Source: a virus
Strand: one strand, 5' to 3'
Length of the DNA: 32,673 nucleotides
Virus record (IMG/VR): IMGVR_UViG_3300028392_000198
Location: 1-32,673 of that record
Below, in pieces: positions 1-32,673 of this stretch (positions within the stretch are counted from its first letter, which is position 1; every line of letters starts with the position of its first letter). The position numbers were made by a program, and so were the translations under genes. The notes beneath the pieces were generated by a model that saw only the letters and a program-made list of their open reading frames with translations, did no database searches and was not told where the DNA came from.

Positions 1-127
1 GGTAAAAAACTCATCAAAAAGACACCCCGCTTCTTTGGCGGGGCATCAGTTTGCTTTAGACAGGGTTAGATGTCAGTAAGCCAGCATTGTTGACCATGCA
101 ATATGGTGCAGATGCCGAGGTTGCCGA
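1..127. repeat. Terminal direct repeat, left copy
   Basis: These 127 bases are identical to 32547-32673. The repeat contains the first 14 bases of the DUF115/glycosyltransferase gene, an intrinsic terminator, and the end of the decoration-protein gene. A repeat of exactly 127 bases matches a common largest assembly k-mer, so it most likely marks a circular assembly of a circularly permuted or circular genome. It is less likely to be a biological terminal repeat. Confidence 0.95.
15..44 (-). terminator. Rho-independent terminator after the capsid/decoration genes
   Basis: Read on the minus strand, a 6-bp G/C stem (CCCCGC at 25-30 pairing with GCGGGG at 38-43, plus a closing G.U) encloses a 7-base loop. 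It is followed after three bases by a run of five T (16-20). It lies 12 bases past the decoration-protein stop at 56-58, so it should end transcripts of the packaging and head genes. The T run ends one base before the ATG of the next gene, the DUF115/glycosyltransferase fusion. A second copy lies at 32561-32590 in the right repeat. Confidence 0.8.
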
Positions 128-589
128 GGTGTTAGCCACGATACCTTGGATATAACCGGAAGATACGGTTGTATCGTCCAATTTACCAGCGGTCGCTGTG
201 GTGTACAAAGGCACTTTAGGATTGCAAGCAATCAACAAGTTGACGCGCAGCATACCGTTAATGCCGATCCAGCCATAGTAGCTGGAAGCAATTGCGGTTT
301 GTGCAAAGCCAACCATGTTGTAACCCAACGCAGCAGCATTTGTGGTGGTCACGGGCACAGCACGCATCACGGGAGTCAAACTCGCCGAATCAGAGTATGT
401 GGACATGATCACCGCATCAAACTGAGCAATGTCGGATTCGGCGCGGGCAAAAATGTACACGCCGTTATTGGAAGTGCCGACCCGAGTACCAGGGGTAACG
501 GGGAACAGGGTAGTGGAACCGGCAGACGTAGACGCATAGGTTGCGGTTAGGTCAATACCAATTTTTCCATCGGTGACGTAATCAGCCAT
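56..589 (-). CDS. Putative head decoration / capsid-associated protein
   Basis: A 177-residue protein starting MADYVTDGKIG. This start was chosen over an upstream in-frame codon because AAGGAG lies just before it, and the earlier codon would run into the capsid gene. It is rich in Ala, Thr, Ser and Val, has no long charged helix and looks all-beta, as expected of a capsid-surface or decoration protein. It follows the major capsid gene by 11 bp and is the last gene before a strong terminator, the usual place for a decoration protein made in large amounts. I do not recognise a named family with certainty; a DUF2190-like or similar decoration fold is possible. Confidence 0.6.
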   Translation of the reverse strand: MADYVTDGKIGIDLTATYASTSAGSTTLFPVTPGTRVGTSNNGVYIFARAESDIAQFDAVIMSTYSDSASLTPVMRAVPVTTTNAAALGYNMVGFAQTAIASSYYGWIGINGMLRVNLLIACNPKVPLYTTATAGKLDDTTVSSGYIQGIVANTSATSASAPYCMVNNAGLLTSNPV

Positions 590-600
590 AATGATTCTCC

Positions 601-1581
601 TTATTCGGTCATTACGCCTTGGAACTGGAGTCCCGAGGCTGTCATATTTCCCGCCCACCCAATTAAACGAACGATCGCGTCCTGATTGGTCGACATACGT
701 TCATCGCCGATTGGGACGAAATTGCGGTTGGTGTGTGGTCGGAAGAAGATGTACTTGCTATTCAAGAAATAGCCAGTAGAGGCGGGGATATTGCCGCCGA
801 TACCACCGTCCAACACCACATCAGCGTTCATGTACTTGCTTGCAACAAAGCCGAGTTCAGCCATCTTGCTAGAGCCAGGGAAACGCTGGATGTTTTGCAG
901 GGAAGACATGAAGAATCCCCACAGGTTGTTATCCAACAAGATCAAGTCAACCACATCGCTACCACGCGAGGTCTTGGCATACAGGCGGTTGAAACCGGTC
1001 TGAATGTTAGAAGACGATGCGGACACGCCGAGGTCGTTTGAAAAGTCAAACGTCTGATTGCGCCAAAAAGACCATGTGCTGCGATCGATACCGCCGACCA
1101 CGCCGGTTGCCGGATTAGCGACCACCATAGCTTGCAGACCGGTGATCTGCTTGCCGTTGTTGGCTGTGCCGTCCGAATAAATACCGGTCGAAATCAAGTT
1201 CTCAATCGATGCCTCGGCAACGTCCAAACGTGCGTCAAACAGGTCAATAATCTGTTCTTCGCCGCTGTTTTGGAGCATTTCCAAGCCATTGATGGTCACA
1301 GCGACTGCGGCCTGCTTGATGGGGAACTGAGCCGCGCTGATAACGTCCGCAGGGCTGATGTCCAAGACTTCAGCGCCCGAGTAGTACATTGCGGTTGAGT
1401 TTGCTTGGAACGACAATTCTTGCAGAATGGTCGAACCGCCGGTGAACGGCTTGTACCGTCCTTTTTCACGCAGACGGGTCAGCAAAGCATTGTTTTTGGT
1501 CACGTTATCGGCGACTGTGCCGGAACGCGATTCAATGGTCGTTGCCAAAACGTCCGAGTAGTTTGCATTTGCGAATGCCAT
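601..1581 (-). CDS. Major capsid protein
   Basis: A 326-residue protein, the expected size for an HK97-fold or P22-like shell subunit. It would form the icosahedral head. The N-terminal segment (about residues 1-40) is helical and charged. The central region holds the typical run of a capsid protein, with a hydrophobic GLEML segment followed by an acidic helix containing DLFDARLD. The C-terminal part is Phe, Pro and Gly rich and ends GLQFQGVMTE. It sits directly after the Gln-rich scaffold gene (13-bp gap) and before the decoration gene, the standard scaffold-capsid-decoration order. The call rests on this position, length and general resemblance to phage capsid proteins. Confidence 0.85.
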   Translation of the reverse strand: MAFANANYSDVLATTIESRSGTVADNVTKNNALLTRLREKGRYKPFTGGSTILQELSFQANSTAMYYSGAEVLDISPADVISAAQFPIKQAAVAVTINGLEMLQNSGEEQIIDLFDARLDVAEASIENLISTGIYSDGTANNGKQITGLQAMVVANPATGVVGGIDRSTWSFWRNQTFDFSNDLGVSASSSNIQTGFNRLYAKTSRGSDVVDLILLDNNLWGFFMSSLQNIQRFPGSSKMAELGFVASKYMNADVVLDGGIGGNIPASTGYFLNSKYIFFRPHTNRNFVPIGDERMSTNQDAIVRLIGWAGNMTASGLQFQGVMTE

Positions 1582-9242: not shown

Positions 9243-9391
9243 TATTTCTTCTTCGGCGGCGCTTTTTTGGCTTGGTCAGCCTTGTTGAATTCCTTGGCTA
9301 CCTTTACCGGAATGCCTGCCATTTTTGCAAATTTAGGGTTGTGGGCGGCTGCTGCCATGAATTTGGCTTGTTTGCTGCTAGTGCTCGGCAT
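9242..9391 (-). CDS. Conserved 49-residue phage protein
   Basis: A short basic protein, MPSTSSKQAKFMAAAAHNPK at the start and a Lys/Pro-rich end (KKAPPKKK). The pattern (a Ser/Lys start, a Met-Ala-Ala-Ala helix, HNP-FAK, GIPVKVAKEF) is a small conserved protein found in many tailed phages; its function is unknown to me. The stop overlaps the next gene's ATG by one base (TAATG), and its 5' end overlaps the GT8-like gene by 14 bp. The high basic charge would suit nucleic-acid or virion association, which is inference. Confidence 0.75.
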   Translation of the reverse strand: MPSTSSKQAKFMAAAAHNPKFAKMAGIPVKVAKEFNKADQAKKAPPKKK

Positions 9392-10061
9392 ATGCGTCCT
9401 TCATGTGAATCAAGCCGTTTAGCATCCGGCTCTTTGTGTTGAACCAAGGTTTACTGTAGTCGCAATCAGCGTAATGGTCAAATTCGGGTATGCCTAGCGT
9501 GTAGTGGGCAATCTTTGTCCGCAAATGGTCGTGTTCGCCTACCAGCACGTTCCATTCCCTTGGCAAGTCGCCAATCAATGAGTCGGGCAACCATTGGAAT
9601 CGGTGCAATTCCTCACCTGTGCTTTCCTCAATGAATTCCGGTGTCAGCACCCTGTTGCGGTTATGTTCGCAGTTCCACAACACCACGCTTGACCAGTTTT
9701 TTCTCGGATAGTCGCCATTTCGGGCTTCCATCGGTGTGCCAATGTACTTCCTCGGGTGTTTGGTCTGATAGTCATGCTTGACCACCTGGACGGCATAGCG
9801 CGGGTCAAACAGGCTTTCAAGGTCTTCAATGTCTGCCAGCATCAGCATATCGCTGCCATCTAAGAATATGGCTTTGCCTTGGTATCCGCACAGAAATGGG
9901 ACTAGAAACCGCTGATAAGTGAATGCGTTTGTGCCATCCCGCTGCTTGCCGGATAAGGGCGTGATACTGACCAGCCCCTTGGTGCGCTCTATGACCGATT
10001 GGCAGAATACATGGTAGCCCACGGCTTCCCGAGGGTCGTATCCTGCAAATATGCGGATCAT
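9378..10061 (-). CDS. GT8-like glycosyltransferase
   Basis: A 227-residue enzyme-like protein. The N-terminus MIRIFAGYDPREAVGYHVF, followed by AFTYQRFLVPFL and KAIFLDGSDMLMLADI, matches the GT-A fold of family-8-type glycosyltransferases. The metal- and sugar-nucleotide-binding D-x-D is seen here as D68-G-S-D71. Later segments (SVVLWNCEH, HYTLGIP, and W in SKPWFNTK) fit the acceptor side of that family. It would transfer a sugar from a nucleotide-sugar to an unknown acceptor such as host surface glycan, a phage protein or DNA. It is coupled by ATGA to the DUF5856-like gene upstream. Confidence 0.75.
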   Translation of the reverse strand: MIRIFAGYDPREAVGYHVFCQSVIERTKGLVSITPLSGKQRDGTNAFTYQRFLVPFLCGYQGKAIFLDGSDMLMLADIEDLESLFDPRYAVQVVKHDYQTKHPRKYIGTPMEARNGDYPRKNWSSVVLWNCEHNRNRVLTPEFIEESTGEELHRFQWLPDSLIGDLPREWNVLVGEHDHLRTKIAHYTLGIPEFDHYADCDYSKPWFNTKSRMLNGLIHMKDAYAEH

Positions 10062-11287: not shown

Positions 11288-11549
11288 CTAAGCCTCTAAT
11301 CATGTCTAAAGCCGCCTGTGGGCTGTCAACCCTGCATAACGTACCACCGGCCCAATTTTGGAAAAAGTCGGCTTGTAGGCCCGTTAAACGCTTTTTAGAG
11401 GTGGTTTTGATCTCCATCAAGAAAGTGTGCCCTTTGTATCCAATTAGTAGGTCAACCGGCAAACCAATGATCCACACATAAGCGCCAGCATCCCGCAGCG
11501 CGGCAACAATGGCCTGTTGGTTTGCGTCAACCCTTGCAGCGTGTCTCAT
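11274..11549 (-). CDS. PD-(D/E)xK / VRR-NUC-like nuclease
   Basis: A 91-residue protein with the compact nuclease core PVDLLIGYKGHTFLMEIKTT. Asp33, Glu46 and Lys48 form the D...ExK active site, followed by LTGLQADFFQNW, a helix common to VRR-NUC and related phage nucleases. The N-terminus MRHAARVDANQQAIVAALRD is a familiar opening of such phage proteins. It could resolve recombination intermediates or process ends. It is coupled by ATGA to the cytosine methyltransferase and overlaps ninB by 14 bp, so it belongs to a DNA-metabolism cluster. Confidence 0.75.
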   Translation of the reverse strand: MRHAARVDANQQAIVAALRDAGAYVWIIGLPVDLLIGYKGHTFLMEIKTTSKKRLTGLQADFFQNWAGGTLCRVDSPQAALDMIRGLDEKP

Positions 11550-12517
11550 AGCAAAGCATCAACCGCTTGAATTCTTTTGCCAATCCATGCCATCACAGGC
11601 ACAGCCATTGAGTTTCCTAGCGCCTTGTACCTTGGCCCGTCAGGGGTTGCCTTGCCCTTGGGCTGGATGTCGGTGTACCTGTCAGGGAACCCTTGCAAGC
11701 GCTCACACTCCACGGGAGTTAGACGGCGTACTGCCATTGCTTGCATCAATGTAATTGGCACATTACCACCGCCAGCGCCATATGTGGCTGAAACAGTAGA
11801 GCAGACATCTCCCAATTCACGCACTCTGCTATCTTGACTATGCAACTCATAAACAGGTTGTGCCACCGCCATTGGATTCTTGGCTTGCAATGTCTGAGTC
11901 ATGTCCACGCTACTTCCAAAGCGTGCTGCAATTGTTCCGGCAACTTCTTTCCCCTTTTCTCGGCTCGGCGCAGGATGCCCCGACAAGCTATGGCGCTCAA
12001 AAAGTACCGCTGCGGCAGGTCGCCAGTCTCCAAGGTATCCGACAACGAACACACGTTTGCGTCGCTGTGCCACTCCGAAATATTGAGCGTCAAGCACCCT
12101 GTATGCGAACCCATACCCGAGGATTGCCAACCCTCCGAGGAAGGAACCAAAGTCCCGTCCATCAGCGGAGGACAAAACGCCGGGGACGTTCTCCCAGACC
12201 AACCAGTTGGGGCGATATCGTTTAGCAATGGCAAGATAGGTAAGCATGAGGTTGCCACGAGGGTCATCCAATCCTTTTCTGAGTCCTGCGACTGAAAAAG
12301 ATTGGCATGGTGTTCCTCCAACGAAAACATCGACATCTGCATCAGGCCACTCCTTAAATTTGGTCATATCGCCCAAGTTGGGCACGTCTGGATAGTGGTG
12401 CTGTAGCACCTTGCAAGGGAACGGTTCAATCTCCGAATACGCTACCGATTCCCATCCTAATGGATGCCAGGCGACACTTGCCGCCTCAATCCCACTGCAA
12501 ACTGATAGAAATTTCAT
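11546..12517 (-). CDS. dcm: C5-cytosine-specific DNA methyltransferase
   Basis: A 323-residue enzyme that transfers a methyl group from S-adenosylmethionine to cytosine C5. Motif I is SVCSGIEAAS (5-14). Motif IV is GGTPCQSFS with catalytic Cys71, and motif VI is WENVPG (108-113). Motif VIII is QRRKRVFVVG (151-160), motif IX RRLTPVECERLQGFPD, and motif X YKALGNSMAVPV. All key residues are present, so it should be active. The target sequence cannot be read from the sequence. No cognate restriction enzyme is seen, so an orphan enzyme shielding phage DNA is likely. A second frame is open inside residues 59-206 (see 11899-12342). Confidence 0.95.
   Translation of the reverse strand: MKFLSVCSGIEAASVAWHPLGWESVAYSEIEPFPCKVLQHHYPDVPNLGDMTKFKEWPDADVDVFVGGTPCQSFSVAGLRKGLDDPRGNLMLTYLAIAKRYRPNWLVWENVPGVLSSADGRDFGSFLGGLAILGYGFAYRVLDAQYFGVAQRRKRVFVVGYLGDWRPAAAVLFERHSLSGHPAPSREKGKEVAGTIAARFGSSVDMTQTLQAKNPMAVAQPVYELHSQDSRVRELGDVCSTVSATYGAGGGNVPITLMQAMAVRRLTPVECERLQGFPDRYTDIQPKGKATPDGPRYKALGNSMAVPVMAWIGKRIQAVDALL
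11899..12342 (-). CDS. Nested out-of-frame gene inside dcm (candidate overprinted protein)
   Basis: A 147-residue frame on the same strand as the methyltransferase, shifted by one base and wholly inside it. It starts MQMSMFSLEEHHANLFQ at an ATG with a perfect AAGGAG exactly seven bases upstream (12350-12355). The peptide includes SGRTSPAFCPP, SSGMGSHTGCLTLN, GDLPQRYFLSA and a basic CRGILRRAEKRGKKLPEQL. I recall similar alternate-frame peptides annotated as hypothetical proteins at phage dcm loci, though I cannot verify this here. Because long shadow frames also occur elsewhere in this genome, open length alone is weak evidence. The ribosome-binding site is the stronger point. Function unknown. 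Confidence 0.5.
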   Translation of the reverse strand: MQMSMFSLEEHHANLFQSQDSEKDWMTLVATSCLPILPLLNDIAPTGWSGRTSPAFCPPLMDGTLVPSSEGWQSSGMGSHTGCLTLNISEWHSDANVCSLSDTLETGDLPQRYFLSAIACRGILRRAEKRGKKLPEQLQHALEVAWT

Positions 12518-13540: not shown

Positions 13541-13643
13541 TTTTAACCTTACGTTATCGGTTTGCGTTACTTAAAAGAACATCGGCAGGGCGGTAACGAA
13601 TCGCCTTTTCCCCCGCTAAAGGTAGCCGTGCCCAAATCCTAAA
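13541..13643. other. Intergenic region between the Cro-like and DUF1376 genes
   Basis: No gene is seen in these 103 bp. The minus-strand Shine-Dalgarno AAGG of the DUF1376 gene lies at its left edge. It contains an inverted repeat CGTTAC/GTAACG about 22 bp apart and a short GGCG...CGCC stem followed by TTTT on the plus strand. I find no convincing sigma-70 promoter. It could carry a regulatory site for the leftward operon. Confidence 0.4.
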
Positions 13644-28258: not shown

Positions 28259-29176
28259 CTATTGTGCGGGCCAATTCCCGTCTTGAACACTCCAAGGGCC
28301 AACCAGCGGATTCATGCCAATTGGGGCAAGGGATTGCGCGGGAACAGGCACATCCTGCGCTTTTGTGTAACTCAATGCCCGCATGAATTCGCCCAATTCA
28401 ACAGAATAATCTAGCTTTTTGGCTTTGAGGAAATAAAACTTCAGACCCGCCAGCATGAGGTCATCAGGGAAAATTGCCGTGTCGGTATCAACGCTATATG
28501 CGCCCTTGTCACCTTGGGTTGCGCCGCTAGACATCACCCAATAATTGCTGACGTACTCAAACGCAAAGGTGTAGATGCTTGTTAAGGCTTGAAAAATCCG
28601 CAAGCGGTTGTTGTATATACGATAGCGTTCACGCGGGCCAACCGAGATGATGCCGCCTTGCAGCCATTGCCATTCTTGGCTGGTTTTCGTTCCAAGGTTG
28701 CGCCAATGGTTTGTGCGATCCCAATTTGTATCCGAAATCATGCGGTCAAAGTCGGTCGGCATCGCATAATCTTGCTTGGCAAACGTCATAGACACCGCTG
28801 CCGTCGAGGTTGCCACCGGCGTGTTTAGCGTGACTTGGGTTGCCGAATCAACAGACAAAATCTCAGCGTATGGCGCTTGACCTGTACCGGTGACCACATT
28901 TCCGGCCTCTAAGCCGGTGGTCGTTCCCATGCTGGTGATGACCTTTGACCCTGCCGTGATTGTGCCGATAGTGCTGATTCCGGCGGTTGTTTGCAGGACA
29001 TAAGCCTTGACCAACCGCTGCCACTCAAATTCGCGCACCAAGTCTTTGCCCAATCGCTGAGACAAAGCCAGCAGTTGGACGGTTTGATTGTTGGTGGAAC
29101 CAATTACTGCCGCTGGTTGGGACAAGCCCAGTTCGCCCGAAACTTGGTCAACCAGTTGCAGTAATGTGTATGCCAT
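28259..29176 (-). CDS. Putative connector / head-tail adaptor protein
   Basis: A 305-residue protein with start MAYTLLQLVDQVSGELGLSQ and a helix LLALSQRLGKDLVREFEWQR. A beta-rich middle with phage-tail phrases such as VTGTGQAPYAEILSVDSATQ follows, then a stretch with DFDRMISDTNWDRTNHW, GERYRIYNNRLRIFQ-like sequence and FAFEYVSNYWV. This is a well-spread phage protein found after the portal-head genes in podoviruses, comparable with adaptor or tubular proteins (P22 gp4 or T7 gp11 position). It follows a 196-residue protein and precedes the gp10-like hub, as expected for an adaptor. Function by position and resemblance. Confidence 0.7.
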   Translation of the reverse strand: MAYTLLQLVDQVSGELGLSQPAAVIGSTNNQTVQLLALSQRLGKDLVREFEWQRLVKAYVLQTTAGISTIGTITAGSKVITSMGTTTGLEAGNVVTGTGQAPYAEILSVDSATQVTLNTPVATSTAAVSMTFAKQDYAMPTDFDRMISDTNWDRTNHWRNLGTKTSQEWQWLQGGIISVGPRERYRIYNNRLRIFQALTSIYTFAFEYVSNYWVMSSGATQGDKGAYSVDTDTAIFPDDLMLAGLKFYFLKAKKLDYSVELGEFMRALSYTKAQDVPVPAQSLAPIGMNPLVGPWSVQDGNWPAQ

Positions 29177-29767
29177 TTATTCCACCACTTCTTCTTTGCG
29201 AGGTCTGCCAGCCTTTTTGGATGTCAATTCCGTAATCATGGCACGAAGTTCAGCCATTTCAACTTCTTGGGCCTTCAATTTTTCATCAGTCTCAGCGCGG
29301 ATTTTGTCCATCATTTGGCTATCTTGCGCCGCACCAATGAATGCTTGAGCCTTGGCCCGCAATTCGTTGAAACCCATGATTTTGTTGCCTGCGGAATCCG
29401 GCAGCTTGGCAAACTGGTCAATCGTGAAGATGTTGAGCGCCCGAAATTCAGCCTTTTGCGTGTCGCTGATTGCTGCCCATGCCTCAATCGGAGTGCCATC
29501 GGATTTTTGCTCTTTCTTTTGCTCAAACCGCGCCCACTCAATTGGATATTCTTCCATGTCGGTTTCGCGCATTGGGCGGTCAACCACCAACGTGGAATCG
29601 CCTGGAACCAGCTTCTTCAAGTAGATGCGTTCCTCAAAGATTGGGCGTTTTTCCAAGTCCGATTTGTAATTGTTCTTAATTTGTACAGCATGGAAAAACA
29701 CCGCCATCTTGCCTCGGTTGTCCTCCATGAAACTTTCATTTGTCCATCCAGCCGTTTCGTTCTTCAT
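29177..29767 (-). CDS. Conserved phage protein with AT-hook-like tail
   Basis: A 196-residue protein. The first half has ordered segments (MKNETAGWTNESFMEDNRGK, KNNYKSDLEKRPIFEERIYL). The middle has QFAKLPDSAGNKIMGFNELR, and a long charged coiled coil follows (DEKLKAQEVEMAELRAMITE). The C-terminus is KKAGRPRKEEVVE, in which GRPRK matches the AT-hook core that binds the minor groove of AT-rich DNA. The protein type is common beside adaptor genes in environmental podoviruses, but its role is unknown. The AT-hook reading is inference. Starts by ATGA overlap with the DUF115-like gene. Confidence 0.6.
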   Translation of the reverse strand: MKNETAGWTNESFMEDNRGKMAVFFHAVQIKNNYKSDLEKRPIFEERIYLKKLVPGDSTLVVDRPMRETDMEEYPIEWARFEQKKEQKSDGTPIEAWAAISDTQKAEFRALNIFTIDQFAKLPDSAGNKIMGFNELRAKAQAFIGAAQDSQMMDKIRAETDEKLKAQEVEMAELRAMITELTSKKAGRPRKEEVVE

Positions 29768-30498
29768 GCCATTTCCTTTAGTTGAAGTGCCGTTTCTTGC
29801 ATAAGCCCGTCACCGAAAAATGCGATCTCCGCATCCTGAGTTGTGATGAATTGTTCCATCTCAATCGCTGCCTGTAGCATTTGCTTGGTGGTCTGAAACA
29901 CTCGGTTTCCAGCTTTCACCATAATTTTAGCTTGTTCCTTGCCCAAATGTGCCCCAGCGTGCCGGTCGGTTGTAAATGAGCAATCCATGCCGTGAATGTT
30001 AAACCGCCGGTAGCCAAGCGCCGCCATGACATTCATCGCCCGTTGCCCGACCGAACTGCCGCCGCCAATCATGCTGTTTGCGCCTTCCGGATGGTTTTGC
30101 ATCACCCATGCAACGGTTTCTAGGTCATCGCCGTTGATCAGATGCCACAACCGCACTTGGCGGCCCTTCAGCACTTCCCAATATTTTGGGTGGCAAACGG
30201 TAGCCATCAGGTAAATGGTCTTGGCCTGCGGGTTTTGCAGCATCCGCGCCTTGTGTTCCCTTGGGTCGCAGTCCACATGGAAATCCGGCACGATTCCGCG
30301 CCTGACAAGATAATCATGGGCGCCGGACACCGTGACAATAGGCCGTTTTATTAGCTTCCAAGTGTCCGCAAGGCTTGGGCCATAGCAGACAATGGATGCC
30401 CATTTATCGTTAAATTTGGGCCTTTTCTTAAGCATTTGCCCATGCGCTTGCGACATTTGGGCATGGCGCTCGGCGTTACTTAGGACACCTTGTAGCAT
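29764..30498 (-). CDS. DUF115 / MptE-like protein (second copy)
   Basis: A 244-residue protein of the DUF115 group (MAF_flag10/MptE-like). Blocks SIVCYGPSLADTWKLIKRPI, SGAHDYLVRRGIVPDFHVDC, CHPKYWEVLKGRQVRLWH, NSMIGGGSSVGQRAMNVMA and NIHGMDCSF form a Rossmann-like domain. DUF115 proteins occur in flagellar glycosylation (Maf) loci and in nucleotide- or pterin-phosphate-binding enzymes. It is clearly paralogous to the N-terminal half of the 544-residue protein in this cassette. A role in sugar transfer to virion or host surface is inference. It overlaps the methyltransferase gene by 19 bp. Confidence 0.75.
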   Translation of the reverse strand: MLQGVLSNAERHAQMSQAHGQMLKKRPKFNDKWASIVCYGPSLADTWKLIKRPIVTVSGAHDYLVRRGIVPDFHVDCDPREHKARMLQNPQAKTIYLMATVCHPKYWEVLKGRQVRLWHLINGDDLETVAWVMQNHPEGANSMIGGGSSVGQRAMNVMAALGYRRFNIHGMDCSFTTDRHAGAHLGKEQAKIMVKAGNRVFQTTKQMLQAAIEMEQFITTQDAEIAFFGDGLMQETALQLKEMA

Positions 30499-31082
30499 TC
30501 AACCCTCATGTCTCGGAATGGAAAGTGATAGCGCGGATCAAAGAATTCGATGCGTTCCATGCCAACCGATTGCAGCATATCGCGCAGCGGGTTTTGAAAC
30601 CAGCCCCACCGGTGACACATGGCAGGGTCTTTGTGCTTGGGGTCGCCCCATAGCGCATAGGTGACCATAAACGGCTGCAAAGGCTCTTTATGCACCACGC
30701 AATTGTGGATGTAGGCAAACACTTTATCCATGCATGGCAATTCAAGAATCATCTTGCCGCCAGGCTTGAGAACACGCATCCACTCAGACAGCAGGGCGTG
30801 TACTTCCCATTCGTAAAAATGCTCCAGCACATGAATGGCGGCGACCGCATCGGCTGAATTGCTGGCAAGTTCCAGCTTACGCAAGTCGCATTTGATGTCC
30901 GATGTTTCGGAATACAGGTCTACGTTTACCCAGCCGTTCCAATGTTTTTTTCCGCATCCGAGGTTGTAGGCCGTTTCGTAATCGTCTTCCATGCATCGAT
31001 CACTATTTGCGGCGAGTATTTTTCCATCACGAATTGTTGCGCCGCCAAGATATTGCTTGACACGTTCTTCTGTGTTGTCCAT
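30480..31082 (-). CDS. Class I SAM-dependent methyltransferase
   Basis: A 200-residue methyltransferase with motif I YNLGCGKKHWNGWVNVDL (LGCG 41-44, acidic Asp55). IHVLEHFYEWEVHALLSEW, with the HVLEH motif, and WMRVLKPGGKMILELP follow, the order of a Methyltransf_11-like Rossmann fold. The best start (31082) has GAGGG six bases upstream. It gives a 157-bp out-of-frame overlap with the DUF115/glycosyltransferase gene. A Met at residue 31 (30992) would shorten the overlap to 67 bp but lacks a clear Shine-Dalgarno. Substrate not known; by context a sugar or a glycosylated product. Confidence 0.85.
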   Translation of the reverse strand: MDNTEERVKQYLGGATIRDGKILAANSDRCMEDDYETAYNLGCGKKHWNGWVNVDLYSETSDIKCDLRKLELASNSADAVAAIHVLEHFYEWEVHALLSEWMRVLKPGGKMILELPCMDKVFAYIHNCVVHKEPLQPFMVTYALWGDPKHKDPAMCHRWGWFQNPLRDMLQSVGMERIEFFDPRYHFPFRDMRVECYKVS

Positions 31083-32560
31083 TCAATGCCCTCTTTGATG
31101 TTGCCAATCCAAATGCCAGAGAAACCCTCCAATGCTGGATGCGGCTCTGCGACTACAAAACACCCTTGACGGGTTGCCTCAATTGCCCGATTTGGGCTTT
31201 TGTAGGTATCGGTGGCGGGGATCACCACGATGTCAGCGCGGGCAAATTCTTCCAACATGGTTTCATGCGACCAAGGGATTGCCCCGCCGAAGTTGGACAC
31301 CACTCGCAGCGGGTAATGCTCAATGTCCGGCAAGATGCGCTGTAGGCTTTGTTTGTTGACGGCGTGCCCATACCACAGCAGATTCACGCCGTTGCAATGT
31401 GGCAGCATCTGATCGTATTCAAAAGGGTCGGGAATGACCACGGCATCTTTGCCCAATGCCTTGATGCGCTTTGCCATTTCTTGGGTTGGACAAGTCACCA
31501 CATCGGCAATCCGCAGCGCCTCGGCATAGTGCGTCCAATCAAAATGGTCATCGCAAAAATCCACAATGACCCGTGCGCCACGCGCCTTGGCCCGAGCCAT
31601 TTCCATCAGTTCATGCGCTTGAGGTTTGGCAAACACCAATGTGCCCGCGGTCAAGTCATTGAGGCTTGCCCATGTGCCTGCCGGTATTTTTGCGCGGTAA
31701 CGCCAGCTTGCCGACCAAACATCGCCAAAGTGAATAAACGAAACCCGATCATTTTGCTGCGTTTGGGTATTGATGATGCCGCCTAGTTCCATCATGTTTT
31801 CTGCCCTTTTGCGAATGATGGCCTGGATCAGCCCATGCCCGTGACCGTTGAACACCGCATCCGGTAAGTAGTCGTAATATGTTTGGAAATGCTCGGCCTG
31901 CAAAGCCATTGCCGTGTTGCAATAGAAAGTCTCGCCATCAGGGTCGATTCTGACTTCAATCAAGCTGTCGCCGTCTTTTAGGCCATCACCATTCACCCGC
32001 AGCATTTCGCCATCATTGCAGGAATCGTAGCCAAACAGTTCAAATTTTCGCCAGCCAAGGACATAGAACAACGACATGGCGCGTAAGCCGGAAGTTGTAC
32101 CGCCGCCGATCAGCATAGAGTTTTTGGGGCGGTTTTGGCCTTTGGTCAGGTATGGATGCCACAGGGTCACATCGCAGCCTGCAAGGTTGTCAAACATCGC
32201 CGGATGGCATTGTGAAGCAATCATATACTTCACGGCCTTATGAGGCTTGTAGAACGCGATCCGATGCTCTTGTGGGTCGATTGCTAGGGCGTAATCAGGA
32301 ATCACGCCGTTGTCGATTAGCCAATCGTGTGCGCCCTTAATGGCAACAACCGGCGCACCGGCTGCTTGCATCTTTTTGATGAGTTCTATTTGCCCTCGAA
32401 CGCTTGGGGCGCTTGCTACCAGCAAGATCGAGCCGGTCTTTTCCGATTCAGCTTGCTTGACTTGTGCAAAGCCTCTAGCAATTGCCGCATCCATATGCGC
32501 GAATAACGTCTCGTCATCCGCGACACATTGACCGTTAACTTTAAGAGGTAAAAAACTCAT
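30926..32560 (-). CDS. DUF115-like / GT-B glycosyltransferase fusion
   Basis: A 544-residue protein with two parts. Residues about 45-270 form a DUF115-like domain (GSILLVASAPSVRGQIELIK; IKGAHDWLIDNGVIPDYALA; IDPQEHRI; SMLIGGGTTSGLRAMSLFYV; ELFGYDSC). Residues about 290-530 resemble the C-terminal GT-B half of group-1 glycosyltransferases (VIVDFCDDHFDWTHYAEALR; DVVTCPTQEMAKRIKALGKD; VIPDPFEYDQM; DIVVIPATDTYKSPNRAIEA, the usual nucleotide-sugar region). The ATG at 32560 is chosen over a TTG one codon earlier. Its first 14 bases lie in the terminal repeat, directly after a terminator. Likely modifies a virion or host surface component. Confidence 0.8.
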   Translation of the reverse strand: MSFLPLKVNGQCVADDETLFAHMDAAIARGFAQVKQAESEKTGSILLVASAPSVRGQIELIKKMQAAGAPVVAIKGAHDWLIDNGVIPDYALAIDPQEHRIAFYKPHKAVKYMIASQCHPAMFDNLAGCDVTLWHPYLTKGQNRPKNSMLIGGGTTSGLRAMSLFYVLGWRKFELFGYDSCNDGEMLRVNGDGLKDGDSLIEVRIDPDGETFYCNTAMALQAEHFQTYYDYLPDAVFNGHGHGLIQAIIRKRAENMMELGGIINTQTQQNDRVSFIHFGDVWSASWRYRAKIPAGTWASLNDLTAGTLVFAKPQAHELMEMARAKARGARVIVDFCDDHFDWTHYAEALRIADVVTCPTQEMAKRIKALGKDAVVIPDPFEYDQMLPHCNGVNLLWYGHAVNKQSLQRILPDIEHYPLRVVSNFGGAIPWSHETMLEEFARADIVVIPATDTYKSPNRAIEATRQGCFVVAEPHPALEGFSGIWIGNIKEGIEWTTQKNVSSNILAAQQFVMEKYSPQIVIDAWKTITKRPTTSDAEKNIGTAG

Positions 32561-32673
32561 CAAAAAGACACCCCGCTTCTTTGGCGGGGCATCAGTTTGC
32601 TTTAGACAGGGTTAGATGTCAGTAAGCCAGCATTGTTGACCATGCAATATGGTGCAGATGCCGAGGTTGCCGA
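32547..32673. repeat. Terminal direct repeat, right copy
   Basis: Exact second copy of 1-127, including the 5' end of the DUF115/glycosyltransferase gene (32547-32560) and the terminator. Joining the two copies makes the decoration gene (56-589) and the glycosyltransferase gene neighbours on the circle. Confidence 0.95.
32561..32590 (-). terminator. Rho-independent terminator, right-repeat copy
   Basis: Same hairpin and T run as at 15-44. In the closed molecule there is only one. It stands immediately upstream of the ATG at 32560. Confidence 0.75.

Follow-up and report, generated by a model that had tools for sequence, protein, structure and literature searches.

A position-fixed cassette of DUF115, glycosyltransferase and methyltransferase genes among the virion genes of freshwater phages, with a possible role in virion glycosylation

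Phage virion glycosylation is known from few systems. Mycobacteriophage glycosyltransferases modify the phages' own capsids and tail tubes, the examples named being Che8 gp110 and Corndog gp38 (work by Freeman et al. 2023 that PMC12363180 cites). Maf proteins transfer nonulosonic acids to flagellin, and they belong to hypervariable islands for which methylated derivatives are predicted (PMC13317340). The DUF115 family is not new in phages, because structure libraries already hold 'MptE-like' proteins of uncultured phages; a literature search on DUF115 or MptE-like proteins in phages found no relevant paper. Here we describe a phage cassette that encodes two DUF115 proteins, a glycosyltransferase (GT) domain and a methyltransferase (MT). 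Its fixed slot, the reshuffling of its DUF115, GT and MT parts and its link to a decoration-type head protein were not found in the literature searched.

Cassette genes and their domains

The window, that is, the whole stretch of 32,673 nt analysed, is a complete genome, because bases 1-128 recur at its end, and it closes to about 32.5 kb. The features considered here are as follows.

1-128 and 32546-32673, no strand: identical terminal repeat of 128 bp
601..1581, minus strand: major capsid protein (PHROG 9953, 4e-106; 50-56% identity to the BUCT555 and Mx8 major capsid proteins)
56..589, minus strand: decoration-type head protein, 177 aa, Mx8 p49-like (PHROG 29386, head and packaging, 2.3e-6)
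32567..32593, minus strand: terminator-like hairpin and T-run, directly before the cassette ATG (present again at 22-48, within the terminal repeat)
30926..32560, minus strand: DUF115 (Maf-like)-GT-B fusion, 544 aa (DUF115 at about 32015-32437, GT-B-like domain at about 30971-31753)
30926..31082, minus strand: 157-nt overlap of the fusion and methyltransferase genes, containing the methyltransferase GCG motif
30480..31082, minus strand: SAM-dependent methyltransferase, 200 aa (Pfam Methyltransf_11, 7.5e-11; GCG motif invariant)
29764..30498, minus strand: stand-alone DUF115 (Maf-like) protein, 244 aa (Pfam PF01973, 8.6e-19, residues 20-177)
29177..29767, minus strand: Mx8 p50 homologue, a conserved protein of the structural cluster that marks the right border of the slot (PHROG 20268)
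28259..29176, minus strand: adaptor/tail protein (PHROG 6013, tail, 3.5e-42; Pfam SU10_adaptor 2e-4, under cut-off)
9378..10061, minus strand: GT8-like glycosyltransferase-like gene outside the slot (Pfam PF01501, 5.5e-4, under cut-off)

The label 'decoration-type' reflects gene position and the PHROG head category. Once the terminal repeat is joined, the order reads terminase, portal, capsid, decoration-type protein, hairpin, DUF115-GT, MT, DUF115, the gene at 29177, adaptor and a PHROG 'amidase'-type protein, so that the cassette has head genes on one side and neck/tail genes on the other, with the decoration-type gene directly upstream across the genome join. An earlier note on this DNA had set the cassette inside the virion operon, between decoration and adaptor genes. 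Its neighbours are phage structural genes, as that note held, and the decoration side is right after the circle is closed through the 128-bp repeat; on the other side, however, the gene at 29177-29767 intervenes before the adaptor. Homologues of this gene adjoin the adaptor gene in relatives. The GT8-like gene is a possible partner of the cassette.

Both DUF115 proteins exceed the curated cut-off of 34.6 bits for PF01973 (MptE-like, formerly DUF115), the fusion with 62.1 bits (7.5e-17, residues 42-182) and the stand-alone protein with 68.4 bits. They are paralogues (BLASTP 1e-27, 33% over 213 residues), and the motif blocks quoted for them in the earlier note align in order; P-S, A-H-D, D-P-x-x-H, C-H, W-H, G-G-x(3)-G-x-R-A and G-x-D are fully or almost fully invariant in both copies and in a distant relative. 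The methyltransferase proposed to lie between the copies is of class I, SAM-dependent (Methyltransf_11, 43 bits against a cut-off of 21.2). For the C-terminal domain of the fusion, Pfam gives weak GT4-type matches, all under cut-off, and Foldseek matches of a moderate-confidence model to HepE, PimA and TarM support the two-Rossmann GT-B fold that had been suggested there. No hydrophobic stretch of membrane-anchor strength was found in any of the three proteins.

The AF2 model of the 244-aa protein (pLDDT 86, pTM 0.85) has Maf (5mu5) as its best PDB match in Foldseek (E 5.8e-8, TM 0.69 by query length), clearly ahead of the second-best, M. jannaschii HPPK/MptE (TM 0.43-0.48); sialyltransferases follow. 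The fusion model (pLDDT 70.5) also finds Maf 5mu5 first (5.7e-6), followed by GT-B enzymes and MptE. A single-sequence phmmer search of the PDB gave no significant match, and a profile built from both DUF115 copies matched Maf at 3e-5 and MptE at 0.08. Both proteins therefore show a Maf/GT-A-like, sialyltransferase-related fold with 5mu5 as top structural match, which upholds the Maf precedent drawn in the earlier note; in one relative (L252), the slot's DUF115 protein has a PHROG match named 'alpha-2;3-sialyltransferase' (3.7e-5). Sequence profile and fold both favour Maf and, with it, a glycosyltransferase over a pterin kinase. Maf flagellin glycosyltransferases use CMP-activated nonulosonic acid and modify Ser/Thr, and in Maf-1 the part that binds flagellin is a TPR domain. 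Pfam recognised no flagellin-binding part in either DUF115 protein, the 244-aa protein being too short for such a domain, and no flagellin gene lies next to the cassette.

Codon comparisons indicate that the 157-nt overlap is dual-coding. In the frame of the fusion gene, the fraction of four-fold third positions changed is 0.51 outside the overlap, 0.21 inside it and 0.13 in codons 481-540; in the methyltransferase frame it is 0.07-0.08 in codons 1-40 against 0.54 past the overlap. Change inside the overlap is thus less than half in the fusion frame and about seven-fold lower in methyltransferase codons 1-40, so both frames are in use. A hairpin stem followed by a T-rich tract directly precedes the cassette ATG in 43/43 distinct upstream sequences, with differing stem sequences. 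The evidence for the hairpin is this conservation, because the copy in the window is one of five terminator-like sites that the scan gave, no more than chance would produce.

Conservation of the cassette and variation of its slot

The carriers of the cassette are a freshwater phage family. With each DUF115 protein as query, at least 80 relatives were found in viral contigs, and the gene order was nearly always unchanged. Because this first contig set had been found by the cassette itself, contigs were also fetched by capsid protein, and the cassette was present in 64/64, 56/56 and 47/47 testable contigs, meaning those long enough to reach it. Within its phage group it ranks as core. Median dN/dS (simple NG86, pairs of moderate divergence) is 0.05-0.11 for the cassette genes, as compared with 0.05 for capsid and 0.05 for adaptor, and by this measure the cassette genes are under purifying selection. 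Being core and position-locked, the GT genes stay beside virion genes throughout the lineage.

The wider set comprised 130 relatives with a complete slot, in 35 capsid clusters, with fetched loci of 4-17 kb. Slot length ranges from 83 to 5326 nt, and 30 of the 130, from six capsid clusters, carry a DUF115 protein there. The earlier note had named relatives carrying the cassette in unrelated positions as evidence against a virion role; when these were looked for, DUF115 lay in the same slot in 30/30 carriers and nowhere else in the fetched loci. DUF115 is absent from the cultured relatives Mx8, BUCT555 and ppBjS10J-1, in which the order capsid, p50-type protein, adaptor, amidase-type protein is retained. 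The BUCT555 slot holds holin and endolysin genes, and other slots hold tail/fibre-like or structural-protein-like proteins. Because the slot is a variable insertion site with such contents, position alone is weak evidence of function. In tblastn against named phages, the stand-alone DUF115 protein had no match and the fusion protein had weak matches to its GT domain only. The genome-contig scan gave one relative, L155, whose fusion protein as query found no viral relative; Rfam found no intron in its interrupted capsid gene.

The slot contents of carriers are built as follows.

Window: DUF115-GT, MT and DUF115
L394, L439: DUF115, GT and MT as separate genes
Many relatives: DUF115-MT
L252: DUF115-MT and a PHROG 1962 GT
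L412: PHROG 1962 GT-DUF115-Methyltransf_24
L446 group: PHROG 1962 GT-DUF115-FkbM
L155: N-terminal domain-DUF115
L448, L433: DUF115 alone

A methyltransferase accompanies DUF115 in 28/30 carriers, fused in 27/30 and adjacent in one more. The partner methyltransferases fall into three or more dissimilar types (Methyltransf_11/25-like, Methyltransf_24 and FkbM), those of L412 and L446 matching neither one another nor the remaining ones in BLAST. GTs accompany DUF115 in several carriers, and in some no GT was recognised in the slot. The N-terminal domain of the L155 fusion had been taken by eye for a GT, an assignment dropped for want of a Pfam, PHROG or PDB match. That assembly from dissimilar parts recurs argues that DUF115, GT and MT would work together.

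Candidate acceptor and alternative readings

With a probability of roughly one half, we propose that the cassette puts a methylated sugar on a protein of the virion surface, for which the decoration-type protein is the likeliest candidate; the sugar chemistry itself is well supported. Three soluble enzymes would be made late in infection and probably at a low level, because the hairpin separates the cassette from the capsid and decoration genes, which are highly expressed. The Maf/sialyltransferase-fold DUF115 domain would take an activated sugar made by the host, which may be a CMP-linked nonulosonic acid, and attach it to side chains on a virion surface protein, the likeliest target being the product of the gene immediately upstream; none of the genes scanned was recognised as serving sugar-nucleotide synthesis. 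The GT-B domain would then extend the sugar and the methyltransferase O-methylate it, in an order that is presumptive, and the second DUF115 protein may add another unit or work at another site.

The best hint to the acceptor is co-occurrence. In a search over all frames, a full-length decoration-type homologue was found in 30/30 DUF115 carriers, whereas of 100 non-carriers 30 have the full-length protein, 7 the N-terminal half only and 63 none detected, these being raw counts that ignore relatedness. Within a group whose capsid proteins are about 88-92% identical, the non-carriers L421/L422 and L425/L426/L428 have an 88-aa half form, and L467/L469, placed on the capsid tree with the carrier L452, show a similar pattern. 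Ser/Thr content of the decoration-type protein is 0.21 in carriers and 0.17 in non-carriers, kinship ignored, and was not used as evidence. A more far-reaching version of the proposal, which we put forward only tentatively, gives a widespread podovirus group a dedicated locus for glycosylating the virion coat, in which the Maf/sialyltransferase-fold enzyme is repeatedly joined with dissimilar GTs and MTs in one slot beside the capsid genes; it would act on the C-terminal half of the decoration protein and so vary the sugar coat of the particle, much as flagellar glycosylation islands vary flagella. The joint absence of DUF115 and that half could instead stem from one contiguous deletion or allele swap.

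Such swapping is at the heart of one alternative, moron-like cargo, in which blocks of decoration and sugar genes are exchanged by recombination and the decoration association is linkage only. Slot contents do vary widely, and the short forms of non-carriers all stop close to one position, as might be expected of a single shared allele. Against this, the cassette belongs to the core of its group and its dN/dS resembles that of structural genes, and similar DUF115/MT/GT sets of dissimilar parts recur in one slot, so that we hold cargo to be distinctly unlikely. Somewhat unlikely, in our judgement, is that the cassette alters a host cell-surface glycan (O-antigen or capsule), blocking superinfection or keeping progeny from sticking to debris, with the slot merely a convenient cargo site. 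Maf-fold and sialyltransferase-fold enzymes also act on lipooligosaccharides (CstII), O-methylated surface sugars are common, and the slot takes variable accessory genes, in BUCT555 those for lysis. Yet the three proteins show no hydrophobic membrane-anchor segment, the genes scanned include no recognised flippase or GtrA-like protein, and DUF115 in the fetched loci is never outside the slot and always occurs with the full-length decoration-type protein.

Glycosylation of phage DNA (hypermodification), with the methyltransferase as partner, would have precedent in DNA-modifying phage GTs (cited in PMC12619734), and the window genome also encodes a C5-cytosine DNA methylase. We consider it highly improbable, however, as the genes scanned include no recognised base hydroxylase or hydroxymethylase, the cassette sits in the structural cluster and not beside replication genes, and DUF115 resembles glycosyltransferases of proteins and glycans. 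Scarcely credible is a hydroxymethylpterin pyrophosphokinase (MptE) serving cofactor metabolism as in archaea, with GT and MT as unrelated neighbours: the Pfam family is named after MptE and the M. jannaschii enzyme is the second-best structural match, but Maf scores higher, fusion to GT and methyltransferase domains is repeated, and the cassette lies among virion genes with no pterin gene recognised nearby. This argues for reading phage 'MptE-like' proteins as glycosyltransferases in preference to pterin kinases. If the proposed coat modification is correct, a modular, position-fixed sugar-coat system would be common in uncultured freshwater phages, with possible effects on adsorption, particle stability or recognition and an acceptor that can be tested.

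Comparison with known systems

The cassette shares with the Magnetospirillum flagellin glycosyltransferase Maf (motility associated factor, 5mu5) the DUF115-domain fold and sequence profile, and Maf genes are likewise paired with methylation genes in a variable island beside a surface-structure gene (PMC13317340). The phage proteins differ in being short, one a stand-alone protein of 244 aa and the other a domain fused to GT-B, in lying beside capsid genes, in having only about 15% identity to Maf, and in the lack of any recognised flagellin gene or flagellin-binding part. Archaeal MptE (6-hydroxymethyl-7,8-dihydropterin pyrophosphokinase, 8sd5) has PF01973 and a related fold in common with them, at a weaker match than Maf, and differs from the phage proteins in that these have no pterin context and are fused to GT and methyltransferase domains. 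The nearest structural relatives are 'MptE-like' proteins of uncultured Caudovirales in BFVD (540-714 aa, such as A0A6J5L5C1 and A0A6J7X5Q0; E to 8.7e-18), whose annotations are automatic, one naming a methyltransferase-domain protein. The podoviruses Mx8, BUCT555 and Bradyrhizobium phage ppBjS10J-1 have the same structural gene order and capsid proteins 50-56% identical, but are without the DUF115 cassette, their slot being short or, in BUCT555, filled with lysis genes. The mycobacteriophage systems resemble the locus in using phage-encoded GT genes, with no mention of DUF115 or a methyltransferase in the available part of PMC12363180; here the GTs lie beside head genes and are known from their genes.

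Interruptions in and beside the capsid gene

The major capsid gene is split by inserts of roughly 0.8 kb in several of the relatives whose loci were compared with the window (L155, L443, L446 and L447):

L155, 3863-4636 and 4800-5610: capsid-gene interruption
L443, L446 and L447, about 858 nt: capsid-gene interruption

These inserts are possibly introns or inserted elements; an Rfam search for L155 returned no match. At a further locus, L426, a 154-aa ORF located 57-522 nt past the capsid gene separates it from the decoration-type gene and, by eye, resembles an HNH homing endonuclease.

Elements in the window

9378-10061: second glycosyltransferase-like gene (weak GT8), kept upstream of terminase in many relatives
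11546-12517: gene for a C5-cytosine DNA methylase
13564-13632, minus strand: int-alpA RNA (Rfam), scoring 36.9, barely over the gathering score of 35.8

Slot content in BUCT555

In phage BUCT555 (L232, 10076-11396), the slot that carries the sugar cassette in the window is filled by holin and endolysin genes.
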